Positions 732 to 32,805 of a stretch of DNA of 32,805 nucleotides are shown here, piece by piece (the first letter of the stretch is position 1; the number at the start of each line of letters is the position of its first letter). The position numbers were made by a program, and so were the translations under genes. Source of the stretch: Chloroflexota bacterium (GTDB taxonomy: Bacteria > Chloroflexota > Dehalococcoidia > Lucifugimonadales > Australimonadaceae). A model generated the notes under the pieces. That model did no database searches, was not told the DNA's origin, and worked only from the letters and a program-made list of their open reading frames with translations. The stretch covers positions 1 to 32,805 of the forward strand of contig JAPPHT010000019.1 in the NCBI GenBank assembly GCA_028874795.1, written 5' to 3'.

Positions 732-2063
732 ATGAGATGCTTCTCGCTAACGGCGCGGCGAGTTCCTGCGCTCACTGCCCTCACTCTCCTTGCACTCGTG
801 TTTGCAGGGTGTGACTCGCCCCCTCCGCCGACGTCAACGCCCGACATCGAGGCAACCGTAAATGCTGCAATCGTCGGTACGGCCACAGCAGAAGCAAGCC
901 TCCAGGCGACGATCAGCGCAGGCGTAGAGGCAACTATCGCGGCTCAGCCGACTGCGACACCAGCTCCCACACCAACGCCGACCTCGACTCCAACGCTCAC
1001 GCCAACCCCAACGCCGACGCCTACCTTGACGCCAACGCCCACGCCCAGCCCAACGGCGACCCCCACTCCGAGGCCTACACCTACACGTACGCCAACGCCT
1101 GCGCCCCGCCCAACAGCAACGCCGGTCCCTTCCGCGATGCCACCTGTGTCGACAACGCAACCACGAGGGTACTGTTCCGAGTACAAGCGATACTTGGAGC
1201 CCAATTCCTCAACCGAATGGAACGAATATGCAGCCGAGCATTATTCGATATGCTATACAACCGAGTATGCCAATGACGTTGAATCGGTGGACGAGTGGAT
1301 GGAGTACGCTATCAACCTGATGAAGGACAAGTATGGGATAACTCAACTCATCGAACCGGAAGCATCGAGGAGTGGGTCTTTTCCTCTGGCATCTGAACAG
1401 ATCCCACTCGTTACAAGCATAATGCTTCTTCCTGGACCCAATGATATGGCAGATACTGGTAATACGCGGTTCATGCTCTTTGCTTATGGTGGATTCTACA
1501 GGGGTGACCAGTGGGTAAGGGATGCGGGCATGGCAGCGATTCCGTACCTCACTCCCTCTCATTCTGACTGGGACGCCAGGCCTGCTTGGGGTGTAATGCG
1601 GCTTCCTCCGGATGACTTCCATGCAAAGAACCTGGTCCATGAGTTCACTCATGCCATCCAGCATTCCATACTCGGATACGACGACTCAGTCCCTGTTTGG
1701 GTCACTGAGGGACTGGCAGAGTACGAAGGAATGTTCAATTCAACTGAGTACAACAAGACCGTGGGGTTTGATTCGCTCGTACGGTACGTCCACGACCGAA
1801 TACCAGATCAACTAAGGTGCTGTCGGGTGCCGGGCATCAGTATCCCAACCTTTGATACGACAGACATATACTTCGGTGGTGCGTTAATTATGAAGTACCT
1901 GGCCGATACTTTTGGCGAAGATATTCACGTACGCCTGATGCACCATAGCCACCCTACCTTCGCCGAGGCACTGGCAGCCGAGTTGGAAACCGCGGGTACT
2001 ACAGTGCCGGAGACGTTCGAAGACTTGCAAAGGTGGCTCCAACAGAAGTACCGCGACCTGTGA
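732..2063 (+). CDS. secreted lipoprotein with gluzincin (HEFTH) metallopeptidase domain
   Basis: A 443-residue lipoprotein. The ATG gives a signal peptide with Arg residues, a hydrophobic core and a lipobox VFAGC (lipid Cys27), so it should be anchored outside the membrane. Residues 30-75 form an Ala-rich segment ([20 protein letters not shown]), then a Thr-Pro tandem linker runs to about 135. The C-terminal half holds HEFTH (303-307) with E326 in TEGLAEY, 18 residues after the motif, the zinc-ligand pattern of Peptidase_MA-like gluzincins; E304 would be catalytic. Substrate unknown. An in-frame TTG six bases upstream is an alternative start. The stop overlaps the GTG of the next lipoprotein, whose N-terminal segment is alike, so the two are co-translated. 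GC is lower than in the rest of the window. The peptidase fold is well supported; activity is inferred. Confidence 0.8.
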
Positions 2064-4120
2064 GGCAGCTCCACTTGCGAACACCTGTAGCACTCAGCCT
2101 ACTCGTGCTTGCGTTTGCGCTGGGGGCGTGCCAATCGGCTCCTCCCACCGCAACGCCCGATGTGGAGGCGACTGTGAGTGCAGCGGTCGCGGCCAATGCC
2201 ACAGCAGAAGCGAACGCCCAAGCGAGGATTCAAGCAGCCATAGCTGCCACGATCGCGGCCCTTCCTCCAACACCCACGCCGACTCCCCACTACACGCCGA
2301 CAGCAACGCCTACGCCTACCTCTACTCCCACACTCCCACTCACTCCCACTTTTACCCCAACATCAACGCCAACGCCAACCTCCACACCCATCGCAGGGCC
2401 GAGTCCGCATCCTCAGACTACCTTCAGCGCTGGCTACAACCTGGTATGCGCCCTACGCTCTGACGGCACGGCTGTGTGCTGGGGGCATGACAACGGCGGA
2501 GCAGCGTCCCCGCCGCCGGAGCAGTTGGTCTCCATCAGCAGCGGCGAGGCGCACACATGCGCGCTCCGGCCTGACGGCACTCCTGTCTGTTGGGGATACG
2601 AAGGACACGGCAGGTCTTCACCGCCTTGGGGCGAACGGTTCGCATCGATCAGCGCCGGCGAAGACCACACCTGTGCATTGCGGCTCGATGGCAGCGCGGT
2701 CTGCTGGGGCCGGAATGAGGACTCTGAGGCATCACCACCCGACAACGAGCGATTCGTCCAGATCGACGGCGGAGCAAATCACACATGCGGGTTACGGGCA
2801 GACGGCGCCGCGGTCTGCTGGGGTGACAATGACTACGGCGAAGCGTCCGCTCCAGCTGACCGGTTCGCGGCGATCAGCGGTGGGCGGGGGCACACGTGCG
2901 GGCTTCGGACTGACGGTACAGTCGTTTGCTGGGGCGACGATGAAGAGGGCCAGGCGTCCGCTCCGGATGATTGGTTCACGGCGATCAGCAGTGGCTACTG
3001 GCACACCTGTGCGCTGCGGAGTGACGGCAGTGCCGTTTGTTGGGGAAGCGACAGCCATGGCCAAGCGTCCGCTCCTGATGACCGGTTCGCGGCAATTAGC
3101 AGTGGCCACCTGCACACCTGTGGTCTGCGTCCAGACGGCGCTGCGGTCTGCTGGGGATGGAACCATGAAGGGCAGGCGTCTCCGCCAGTGGGCGAACGGT
3201 TCGCAGTGGGGAACGTTGAAGTAGGCTCGGCGCCGGTTCCCAAATCCACGCCTACACCCAAGCCGACCCCCACCCCATTGCCGAGTCGGGTCCGCATACT
3301 CGGACCCCTCAGCGGTGGCTATAACTTCGTATGCGCTCTACGCCCTGACGGCACGGCTGCGTGCTGGGGACGTGACGACAGCGGGGAGGCATCCCCACCG
3401 CCGGAGCAGTTGGTCTCCATCAGTACCGGCGAAGGGCACACATGTGCGCTCCGGCCTGACGGCACTCCTGTCTGTTGGGGCTACGATGGAGACGGCAGGT
3501 CTTCACCACCGGGGGACGAACGGTTCTCATCGCTCAGCGCCGGCGAAGACCACACCTGCGCATTGCGGCCCGACGGCAGCATATTCTGCTGGGGATGGAA
3601 CATGTTCGATCAGGCATCACCGCCTGAAGGCGAGCGACTGGCAAGCATCGACAGCGGCGCATATCACACGTGCGGGTTGCGAGCAAACGGCGCCGCTGTC
3701 TGCTGGGGCGATAATGAAAACGGCCAGGCGTCCGCTCCAGATGACCGCTTCGCGGCGATCAGTGGGGGGCAGCGGCACACGTGTGGGCTTCGGACGGACG
3801 ACACAGTCGTCTGCTGGGGCGACAATGAACACGGCCAAGCATCTGCTCCAGATGACCGGTTCGCGGCGATAAGCAGTGGCTACCGGCACACCTGCGCGCT
3901 GCGGAGTGACGGCAGCGCTGTTTGTTGGGGAAGTGACAGCCACGGCCAGGCATCTCCGCCGGAAGGTGGAAGTTTCGCCGTCATCAGTTGTGGTCATCGT
4001 CATACGTGTGCCTTACGGAGTGACGGCGGCGCCGTTTGTTGGGGAAGGAACAACCATGGCCAAGCGTCTCCCCCGGAGAGCGAACGTTTCGCTGTGGGCG
4101 AGGTTGCGGTTGGCGGCTAG
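2060..4120 (+). CDS. lipoprotein with fourteen RCC1-like repeats (two putative seven-bladed propellers)
   Basis: GTG at 2060 overlaps the upstream TGA by four bases and gives [15 protein letters not shown] with lipobox ALGAC (Cys24); a GTG at 2033 would add nine residues and is less likely. The product is 686 residues. Residues 25-65 repeat the [11 protein letters not shown]...ATAEA head of its neighbour, then comes a Thr-Pro linker. From residue 122 there are seven ~37-residue repeats of the form F-x-x-I-S-x-G-x-x-HTC-x-L-R-x-DG-x-x-VCWG, a second Thr-Pro linker (~395-412), and seven more repeats from 418. RCC1 repeats build seven-bladed beta-propellers, so each block fits one propeller. Nearly every blade has two Cys (HTC and VCWG) that could form a disulfide outside the cell. 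Likely role: surface binding, possibly with the co-encoded peptidase. This is inference; no ligand can be named. Confidence 0.85.
2423..4107 (+). repeat. tandem RCC1-coding repeats, duplicated seven-repeat block
   Basis: About 110-base coding units occur seven times from 2423 and seven times from 3311. Unit n of block 1 resembles unit n of block 2 most closely (for example both second units encode LVSIS[15 protein letters not shown]), so a whole seven-unit block was duplicated rather than single units. The linker between the blocks is Thr-Pro rich. Confidence 0.85.
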
Positions 4121-29833: not shown

Positions 29834-30289
29834 ATGGCCGACGCCAGCGCCAGGCAGCACGTTGTAGACAACCTCATCGAACGGCACGCAGCCGTGTTCG
29901 AGCCTGTCGGTGGTTCCGCGGACGTGGACCTCGCCGTCAGGACCGGCGATGGGCAGTACGTGGAAGTGATCATCAGGGAGCCTGTTCCTGCAAAGGAGGG
30001 CCGCTCCTTCCTCATGCGCCGCTTCCGTCCGCGCCCGCACCTGTTCATCATGTGCGTCGCTCCGGGGTTCGAGGCATGGCTGCTGCCTTCGACGGTGTTC
30101 GAACGTTTCGCGACCGGCGCCCCTGGCGAACCGGAGTGGGTGCTGCAGCTCGATGCTCCCTCGGACGAGCCGCTGAGTGACCGGCTCTCCGTCTACCGCG
30201 AACGATGGGCGCTTATCGCCAACTACTCCGAGTACCGCTCAACATTGAGCGACCCGCTGGCCCTGCGGGTCAGGATAGCGATGCTCTGA
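29834..30289 (+). CDS. uncharacterised protein in the haem operon, possible PD-(D/E)XK-like fold
   Basis: A 151-residue soluble protein between hemB and hemL: three bases after hemB, and its TGA shares one base with the hemL ATG. I do not recognise a named family. The pattern D32 (ADVDLAV), E44 (YVEVIIRE), RPRPHLFIMCVAP and AWLLPSTVF resembles small restriction-endonuclease-like proteins in which a D...ExxxK core is followed by a D/H-LFVVCV strand and a W-x-x-P-S-x-V-F strand. The Lys is replaced by R48, so it may be inactive or not a nuclease at all. The tight fit in the operon suggests co-expression with haem synthesis, but no haem-related motif is seen. Confidence 0.65.
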   Translation: MADASARQHVVDNLIERHAAVFEPVGGSADVDLAVRTGDGQYVEVIIREPVPAKEGRSFLMRRFRPRPHLFIMCVAPGFEAWLLPSTVFERFATGAPGEPEWVLQLDAPSDEPLSDRLSVYRERWALIANYSEYRSTLSDPLALRVRIAML

Positions 30290-31581: not shown

Positions 31582-31968
31582 GTGAAGACACGAGTCACCG
31601 CAATCCTCGCCCTGATCGCAGTCGTCGCCGTATCGAGCATCCTTGCTGGATGCGGCCCCTCCGGACCCACCCCCACGCCGGCCGTCCCAACCGACGGCGT
31701 GCTGGACGTCGACATGCGGAACTACGTCTACGAACCCAGGACCTTTGAGTTTAAGGTGGGCGAGACGGTAGAATTCCGCTTGATATCCGAGGACGAACCG
31801 CATACCTTTACGGTCAGGGACCTCGGGATCAACTGGGTCGTGCCAGTGGAAGAAGAGCCGCAAGTGCAGGCGTTCACGTTCCGCGAGTCGGGGACATTCG
31901 AGATTATCTGCACGGTGGCGGGACACGAGGCGTCGGGGATGGTTGGCAAGATTACCGTCGTGGAGTAA
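31582..31968 (+). CDS. cupredoxin-like lipoprotein
   Basis: A 128-residue lipoprotein. Signal peptide with lipobox ILAGC (Cys24), short Pro-Thr linker, then a cupredoxin domain. Copper ligands of a type 1 site are all present: H74 (DEPHTF), C110, H115 and M120 (IICTVAGHEASGM). The protein should sit on the outer face of the membrane and carry electrons. GTG start with AGGA upstream, nine bases after hemL, so it probably shares the haem transcript. The following membrane protein is a plausible redox partner. Confidence 0.88.
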   Translation: MKTRVTAILALIAVVAVSSILAGCGPSGPTPTPAVPTDGVLDVDMRNYVYEPRTFEFKVGETVEFRLISEDEPHTFTVRDLGINWVVPVEEEPQVQAFTFRESGTFEIICTVAGHEASGMVGKITVVE

Positions 31969-32005
31969 TCTCGCCGGACAAACTGCCGGGAAAGGAGCAT
32001 GGCTT

Positions 32006-32554
32006 ATGGACTGGGAAGCGCTGTACCTTGACTTGGTTCGCTACGGCCACATCTTCAGTGGCATACTCTGGATAGGCCTGCTGTACTTCTATAACTTCGT
32101 GCAGGCGATCGCCTTGCCTCGTATGGCAGCGGAAGCCCGGCCCCACTACCAGACGACCATCCTGCCGTTCTCGCTGAACGTCTTCCGGTGGGCTTCGCTC
32201 TCAACCCTGCTCTTCGGTCTCCTGTTCATCATCAGCGCGGAAGTAGGGGTAGGGAACCTCAACATTGACAACGCCTATCTGCTGACTGACCGTGGTAAGT
32301 CGATCCTCGTTGGCGGCGTCCTGGGCATCATCATGGCCTACAACGTCTGGATGATCATCTGGCCCAACCAGCAGAAGATCATCGCTGCCGTGAAGGACAC
32401 CCTGGAGAACGGGACCCCCGCCCCTGCCGACCAGCCGAAGTGGGCGCGCACCGCGCTCCTCGCTTCGCGCACGAACACCATGCTCTCCATCCCCATGCTC
32501 TTCTTTATGGTGGCGGCGGCAAACTTCAAGGTTCTCTGGGACCCCTGGTTCTAA
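32006..32554 (+). CDS. four-TM membrane protein, Urate_ox_N/PuuD-like
   Basis: A 182-residue membrane protein with four predicted helices: about 13-37 (YGHIFSGILWIGLLYFYNF), 53-77 (VFRWASLSTLLFGLLFIIS), 98-118 (ILVGGVLGIIMAYNVWMII) and 155-175 (MLSIPMLFFMVAAANF). The first helix with H15 and the WIGxLYFYNF signature resemble the N-terminal domain of bacterial urate hydroxylase PuuD (Urate_ox_N). The C-terminal cytochrome part of PuuD is absent. Urate oxidation should therefore not be assumed; a quinone- or haem-linked redox role is inferred from the cupredoxin beside it. ATG at 32006 has AAAGGAG at good spacing. Confidence 0.75.
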   Translation: MDWEALYLDLVRYGHIFSGILWIGLLYFYNFVQAIALPRMAAEARPHYQTTILPFSLNVFRWASLSTLLFGLLFIISAEVGVGNLNIDNAYLLTDRGKSILVGGVLGIIMAYNVWMIIWPNQQKIIAAVKDTLENGTPAPADQPKWARTALLASRTNTMLSIPMLFFMVAAANFKVLWDPWF

Positions 32555-32580
32555 GCGCGGAGCGGAGAAAGGAACACACC

Positions 32581-32685
32581 ATGAACAACCCACTGAACAC
32601 CGTCAAGGGCACCGTAACGGCAGGCATCGTCATCACGATTCTTCTGGTCGTGGTCGCTCAGATAGTTGCCGCCATTACCGGGTAG
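32581..32685 (+). CDS. 34-residue single-TM protein
   Basis: A very small gene, MNNPLNTVKGTVTAGIVITI and on to LLVVVAQIVAAITG: a short polar N-terminus and one membrane helix (about 13-32). GGAGAAAGGAAC lies just before the ATG, 26 bases after the four-TM gene. Size and place suggest an accessory subunit of the upstream membrane protein, as CydX is for cytochrome bd. It is inferred from the clear ribosome site, operon spacing and helix; no family recognised. Confidence 0.6.
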   Translation: MNNPLNTVKGTVTAGIVITILLVVVAQIVAAITG

Positions 32686-32706: not shown

Positions 32707-32805
32707 GAGGAGCGGGGGGCCCGGGGGGGGCCCGGGCGGGGTTAAATTTGTTGGTTTTCGGGGGGGATTATGCCCCCCCCCGTGTGTGGGGGGGGGGGGG
32801 GGGGG
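32707..32805. other. homopolymer-rich contig end, probable artefact
   Basis: Runs of G and C (for example an unbroken G run to the last base) with a short AT patch (TTAAATTTGTTGG) have no coding or structured content. This looks like low-quality or poly-G read ends rather than genome sequence. Confidence 0.7.

Follow-up and report, generated by a model that had tools for sequence, protein, structure and literature searches.

A short DUF989 membrane protein paired with a conserved one-helix microprotein, and its type 1 copper neighbour in Chloroflexota

The membrane protein considered here is homologous in its core to PuuD, a cytochrome c urate oxidase with eight helices, a C-terminal CxxCH domain and a purine gene context. 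A group of shorter members of the DUF989 family was noted in print in 2015. In the passages devoted to them, these proteins keep four helices equivalent to I, II, V and VI of PuuD, lack the cytochrome, lie in a gene context unlike that of puuD and are assigned no function (PMC4562309). A role in oxygen-independent PQQ synthesis was proposed for a short PuuD-like gene in section 2.9 of a 2025 paper (PMC12423496). Public plasmid annotation gives short DUF989 proteins the name 'urate hydroxylase PuuD', although they are devoid of the cytochrome of PuuD; they constitute an already known but uncharacterised group. Two other kinds of protein are relevant for comparison: CydX-like proteins are one-helix subunits of respiratory enzymes, and HemJ (UPF0093, PF03653) is a haem b protein.

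The window analysed here, a whole stretch of 32,805 nucleotides, is contig 17 of a 3.33 Mb assembly in 90 contigs, and the closest named relatives of the source genome are Chloroflexota of the SAR202/Dehalococcoidia kind. An earlier note on this DNA had placed genes for a cupredoxin, a PuuD-like protein and a 34-residue peptide in tandem at the end of a haem operon. All three genes are real and correctly positioned on the + strand (Table 1), where they close an operon of the order hemA-hemC-cobA/hemD-hemB-(151 aa)-hemL-cupredoxin-four-helix gene-microprotein. Their location after hemL was therefore right and the haem label was not, since the operon yields uroporphyrinogen III and siroheme precursors and the hemE, hemY and hemH genes of the source genome are located on contig 87. 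The 151-aa gene between hemB and hemL (29834-30289) has no Pfam or NCBIfam match, and its position is kept in related Chloroflexota (L015, L017, L018). Elsewhere in the window, a 695-aa ORF (2033-4120) with many CWG-type repeats is RCC1-like by eye and follows a lipoprotein whose linker is similar and likewise rich in proline and threonine, and the contig ends in a G-/C-rich low-complexity run (32713-32805) that looks like an assembly artefact.

Table 1. Features of the three-gene segment that closes the operon
Feature	Position	Strand	Basis
Type 1 copper (cupredoxin) lipoprotein, 128 aa, GTG start	31582..31968	+	Pfam, ligands H74, C110, H115, M120
Shine-Dalgarno-like aaaggag ahead of the four-helix gene	31991..31997	+	by eye
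Short DUF989 (Urate_ox_N) four-helix membrane protein P0002, 182 aa, without CxxCH	32006..32554	+	PF06181
Shine-Dalgarno-like aaagga, 7 nt upstream of the microprotein ATG	32568..32573	+	by eye
One-helix microprotein P0003, 34 aa, motif M(K/N)NPL(D/N)(S/T)xxGT	32581..32685	+	profile conservation

At the level of the four-helix protein, PF06181 (Urate_ox_N) is the sole Pfam match of P0002 (E 1.3e-13, 51.5 bits against a cut-off of 26.9) and covers profile positions 162-238 of 295. With this match, four hydrophobic segments and no cytochrome c, P0002 is a short DUF989 protein. It had been described as resembling only the N-terminal part of urate hydroxylase; the kinship with PuuD is confirmed, and the reading as an N-terminal half gives way to the matched profile positions and to the assignment of the four helices to I, II, V and VI in the passages on the short members (PMC4562309). 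Relatives of the core are spread over many phyla, 80 of the 90 loci found having been analysed and the other 10 left out of this set; the 93-locus set used for the microprotein lacks L013, which tblastn did not recover. PF06181 is matched by 75/75 aligned core members (E up to 1), and no C..CH is present among the core members listed. The 75-row alignment contains 21 invariant columns, including H, W, M, N, R and P residues, and the only invariant histidine is H15 (P0002 numbering), a residue best described as near-invariant. Topology was predicted from loop charges by means of the positive-inside rule, which gives a core with N-out and C-out termini and a conserved cluster on the cytosolic side (FRW, WPxQ, SRxNT). 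A phylum-wide search placed 97 of 400 genomes among the matches listed, with only 12 strong matches (E under 1e-47). The remaining matches resemble full-length PuuD or families further removed and were left uncounted, and two genomes with weak matches (G069 and G087, E about 5e-6), neither of which has a microprotein match, were excluded from the count of carriers.

The microprotein P0003, with a single hydrophobic segment, retrieves as a lone query copies that adjoin the four-helix gene in Proteobacteria. An iterated profile locates it downstream of the core in Chloroflexota; in Eremiobacterota and in Gamma-, Beta- and some Alphaproteobacteria it lies upstream. At 58 of 93 loci there is a same-strand match no more than 400 bp away, with E 1e-3 or better. 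The conserved microprotein is genuine, beyond chance, because its substitutions are mostly silent (pooled pS 0.71 versus pN 0.24, 28 pairs from 8 close copies) and because the profile matched nothing else, even at E 1, in the 1.37 million residues scanned. Over 98 relatives the same profile yields 13 matches at E 0.01, and 12 of them coincide one for one with the genomes that have a strong four-helix match, the microprotein lying directly downstream in each. The 13th (G021, E 7e-4) falls within a 470-aa frame and is chance-like, so that the microprotein is present in 12/12 core carriers versus one doubtful match among the 86 other relatives; profile rows came from eight of these carriers, and G003, G008, G013 and G028 are independent of it. 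A profile built from Chloroflexota only recovers the microprotein at 30 of the 69 remaining loci (L014, from G069, being counted within these) at E 1e-4 and with no off-target match. The reverse profile, from copies outside Chloroflexota, recovers 23 of 24 Chloroflexota loci at E 1e-4, the sole miss being L022, on a contig that stops 15 bases past the core gene. P0003 belongs to no Pfam or NCBIfam family, and 26 microprotein members gave only chance-level matches against these collections, whose small-subunit models are short. Literature searches on PuuD and DUF989/PF06181 found no paper on a small DUF989 partner in a library that leaves out most subscription journals. The conservation of the microprotein in relatives thus withstood the profile, the pS/pN comparison and the genome-wide scan, and from this pairing it is very probably a subunit of the four-helix protein. 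At the practical level, purification or assay of the core without the microprotein may fail, and the microprotein offers a direct handle on the system.

It is important to remark that the extra helix also occurs as part of the core protein itself. It is fused to the N-terminus of the core in L041 (E 5.5e-8) and L075 (5.9e-7), and it lies at the N-terminus in L045, L047, L062, L076 and L078 once the reading frame is extended to a start further upstream. C-terminal fusions were found in L084, L087, L083, L093, L088 and L069 (E 5e-7 to 1e-3), where one additional helix precedes the fused one and restores its N-in, C-out orientation; L067, L081 and L091 have the same C-fused layout without a significant helix match. 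In 14 of the 75 rows (Alphaproteobacteria, Methylococcaceae-type) the N-terminal helix is too diverged to match, and 5/75 rows have neither a free nor a fused form. Loop charges predict N-in, C-out for the extra helix in all its forms, free or fused. On a tree built mostly from core columns, no fewer than 7 changes are required to explain the six arrangement classes, and the Chloroflexota and the C-fused group each form one side of a branch. AlphaFold models of the N-fused and C-fused forms reach pLDDT values of 92 and 90 and pTM values of 0.82 and 0.89, respectively. The helix, free or fused at either end, is always found with this core, which is strong evidence of a structural subunit. Judged by these arrangements, core and microprotein very probably form one machine, and the natural fusions indicate which construct to build first.

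The third gene of the segment behaves differently. Its product has a lipobox (LAGC, residues 21-24), exceeds the Pfam cut-offs of PF13473 and PF00127, and carries the four copper ligands (His, Cys, His, Met), which are identical in 29/29 rows, duplicates included; by domain and ligands it is a type 1 copper protein. A cupredoxin adjoins 14 of the 17 microprotein-type units of Chloroflexota (identical records counted once, paired by identical match figures) and is missing in L012, L023 and L026. Six of six more distant Chloroflexota cores (L137-L142) have neither cupredoxin nor microprotein within short flanks. Outside the phylum a cupredoxin occurs at 1/68 loci, the actinobacterial L091, and on the opposite strand, which rejects it as a universal partner. 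The cupredoxin is thus a lineage-specific partner and the trio a regional elaboration of a wider pair, since it accompanies most Chloroflexota units and is scarce elsewhere. The idea of a three-gene module with a co-conserved cupredoxin consequently stands for the pair of core and microprotein and fails for the trio beyond Chloroflexota, where the four-helix protein nearly always lacks the cupredoxin, a situation that the earlier note had named as refuting its proposal. At one locus (L022:5048-5896, equivalent to L136) the four-helix gene follows a pair of cupredoxin genes in tandem, of which the first lacks the lipobox cysteine in the alignment.

Moving electrons is most likely the job of this unit. 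The DUF989 core, with helices I, II, V and VI of PuuD, would be completed by the extra helix in N-in, C-out orientation, which would have been retained in evolution either as a separate peptide or as an extension of the N- or C-terminus, and the unit would, like PuuD, be a small oxidoreductase. At the conserved cytosolic face (the FRW, WPxQ and SRxNT cluster) a substrate or donor may be handled, and electrons would then cross the helix bundle to a periplasmic carrier. This carrier is the fused cytochrome c in PuuD and would be the adjoining type 1 copper lipoprotein in most of these Chloroflexota. A b haem or another cofactor may sit near H15; by axial-ligand reasoning, a bis-His haem in the core is unlikely because only one histidine is invariant. 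The analysis shows the three genes, the strict pairing, the fusions at both ends, and the conservation of the core and of the copper ligands; the physical complex, the cofactor and the direction of electron flow are inferred. The complete mechanism, a membrane redox unit of 4+1 helices from which electrons reach a periplasmic carrier, here the cupredoxin, is put forward tentatively. More tentative by a shade is its extension to a widespread and undescribed two-subunit oxidoreductase with an overlooked 30-residue fifth helix, repeatedly split or fused at either end, and with electron delivery to periplasmic carriers that can replace one another (cytochrome c for PuuD, blue copper for Chloroflexota), which might operate in SAR11, SAR202 relatives, Arenicellales, Beta- and Gammaproteobacteria, Eremiobacterota, Myxococcota and Bdellovibrionota. 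In the suggestion of a haem- or quinone-linked electron-transfer complex the redox role is plausible, and the link to haem through gene setting is local to Chloroflexota. Should redox activity be demonstrated, an entire class of membrane proteins from abundant marine bacteria would acquire a role together with a small subunit, and DUF989 would turn out to be the fold of a modular oxidase whose electron acceptor can be exchanged.

Gene neighbourhoods in other lineages bear on this reading and on two alternatives. The redox reading is favoured by the PuuD precedent, the cupredoxin of most Chloroflexota units, the invariant columns and the redox-type genes that adjoin some loci (SOD, cytochrome c, COX4, ferritin-like, peroxidase, pqq). 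No operon partner common across phyla was found; neighbours vary by lineage and most are not redox genes (arg genes, secDF-yajC, uvrA-like by eye). Flank gene calls are crude, and the redox-type neighbours that follow were identified by Pfam or BLAST. COX4 adjoins L075, a UbiA-family gene (CtaB-like by eye) adjoins L012 and cytochrome c adjoins L083. The first two, together with the small size of the protein, its single invariant histidine and the variety of its neighbours, would suit a non-enzymatic protein that serves a respiratory or metal enzyme in assembly, transport or scaffolding and is stabilised by the helix of the microprotein. This explanation is unlikely, though the strongest of the competing ones, given a polar cluster that is deeply invariant (21 columns in 75 rows) and a core homologous to an oxidase, PuuD, according to the passages on the family (PMC4562309). 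A Fe/Mn superoxide dismutase directly adjoins 6/80 loci from five lineages (L023, L030, L047, L077, L086, L091), all six flanking SOD genes being immediate neighbours, versus 150 of the 529 called genes (p 5e-4 for position). Along with the peroxidase next to L024 and the ferritin-like gene next to L093, this would fit a b-type membrane cytochrome of the oxidative-stress kind, engaged for example in superoxide oxidation or in feeding peroxide removal. Such a function appears improbable, as SOD is found at only those six of the 80 loci and the core has a single invariant histidine, whereas the superoxide oxidase CybB is a di-haem protein. The peroxidase (L024:7070-8393) is a haem peroxidase (PF00141, KatG-like by eye) located after a unit of cupredoxin, four-helix protein and microprotein, away from tetrapyrrole genes. 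A link to haem-copper oxidases by co-occurrence was discarded, since COX1 is present in 90 of 98 relatives and does not discriminate.

The tetrapyrrole neighbourhood is stable within these Chloroflexota, because hemL lies on the same contig and within about 4 kb in 12/12 carriers, in several orientations including the reversed order. Two plasmids place the core within pqqA-pqqD-pqqE-short PuuD-serC (L129, L130); these cores are about 29-30% identical to P0002, and in L130 a microprotein (2625-2735), with no entry in the incomplete gene table, lies ahead of the PuuD-like gene. Both settings, and the proposal on oxygen-independent PQQ synthesis (PMC12423496, in the section concerned), invite the view that the unit oxidises a small nitrogen heterocycle: a tetrapyrrole intermediate in Chloroflexota, a PQQ precursor in pqq clusters, urate in PuuD. 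This is no more probable than the oxidative-stress cytochrome, because 11 of the 42 relatives examined have a true hemL but no unit, and the units of other phyla are away from tetrapyrrole genes, save one hemB near L032. Among the 12 carriers, hemE, hemY and hemH are present only in G000 and G002-G005, and with the models used none of HemE, HemY, HemJ, HemH and AhbD exceeds its cut-off in the other seven. The latter (G006, G008, G010, G012, G013, G015, G028) all have hemL, five of them keep COX1, and their gene content suggests either haem auxotrophy or another, so far unrecognised route. A co-expression link to haem synthesis had also been supposed; it is confined to the Chloroflexota setting and fails in the seven carriers without late haem enzymes. 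Therefore, the unit does not stand in for an absent protoporphyrinogen oxidase and has no general tie to haem synthesis. Replacement of protoporphyrinogen oxidase by a HemJ-like protein is in fact already contradicted and highly improbable: a weak likeness around R-x-x-H and W-x-G-L-x-Y (hhalign P 0.004, probability 8%) and UPF0093 matches in 6/75 members (best E 0.0068) are outweighed by HemY in G000 and G002-G005, by the 25 of 42 unit-bearing genomes outside Chloroflexota in which HemJ exceeds its cut-off, by the seven carriers in which the substrate would be missing because HemE is absent, and by P0002 having no PF03653 match at E up to 1.

Fold comparison was not specific. Foldseek gave no PDB match with E under 0.4 for either the N-fused or the C-fused model, and VIA-align ranks haem-b bundles (cyt b6, STEAP, b561, NOX5, bd) high together with many unrelated bundles, the best b-cytochrome Z values (10.9 and 9.6) being below the stated noise level for helical bundles; a fold identity was accordingly rejected. 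Weak Pfam matches among the 75 members (DUF2269 8/75, CDH-cyt 8/75, UPF0093 6/75, DUF1761 6/75) are all at E 0.005 or worse and were not used.

Among known systems, HemJ is likewise a four-helix protein with an early K/R-x-x-H and a W then G, but it shows no significant profile match to the core and coexists with it in the same genomes. CydX-like subunits resemble the microprotein as single-helix partners, of about 30 residues, of a membrane redox protein; no sequence relation to such small subunits was found in Pfam or NCBIfam, and the comparison, already drawn in the earlier note, is apt in view of the conservation of the microprotein and its strict pairing with the core. Hden_0550 of Hyphomicrobium denitrificans (pqqAED-puuD-serC-pyrD) is, in the part of the source that deals with it, a short PuuD-like protein in a redox biosynthesis cluster, proposed to act in PQQ synthesis, unlike the unit of the window (PMC12423496). 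Like PuuD, of which five full-length homologues were compared by eye, the core has R-x-x-H, W-x-G, G...GTxM..N and S..N...P....M; the eight helices, the CxxCH domain and the purine context are absent from P0002, with its 182 residues and four segments. The nearest correspondence is with the short DUF989 proteins, which have the same four helices, no cytochrome c and a context unlike that of puuD; a small partner is absent from the passages that describe them (PMC4562309), whereas here an extra helix, free or fused, is conserved.
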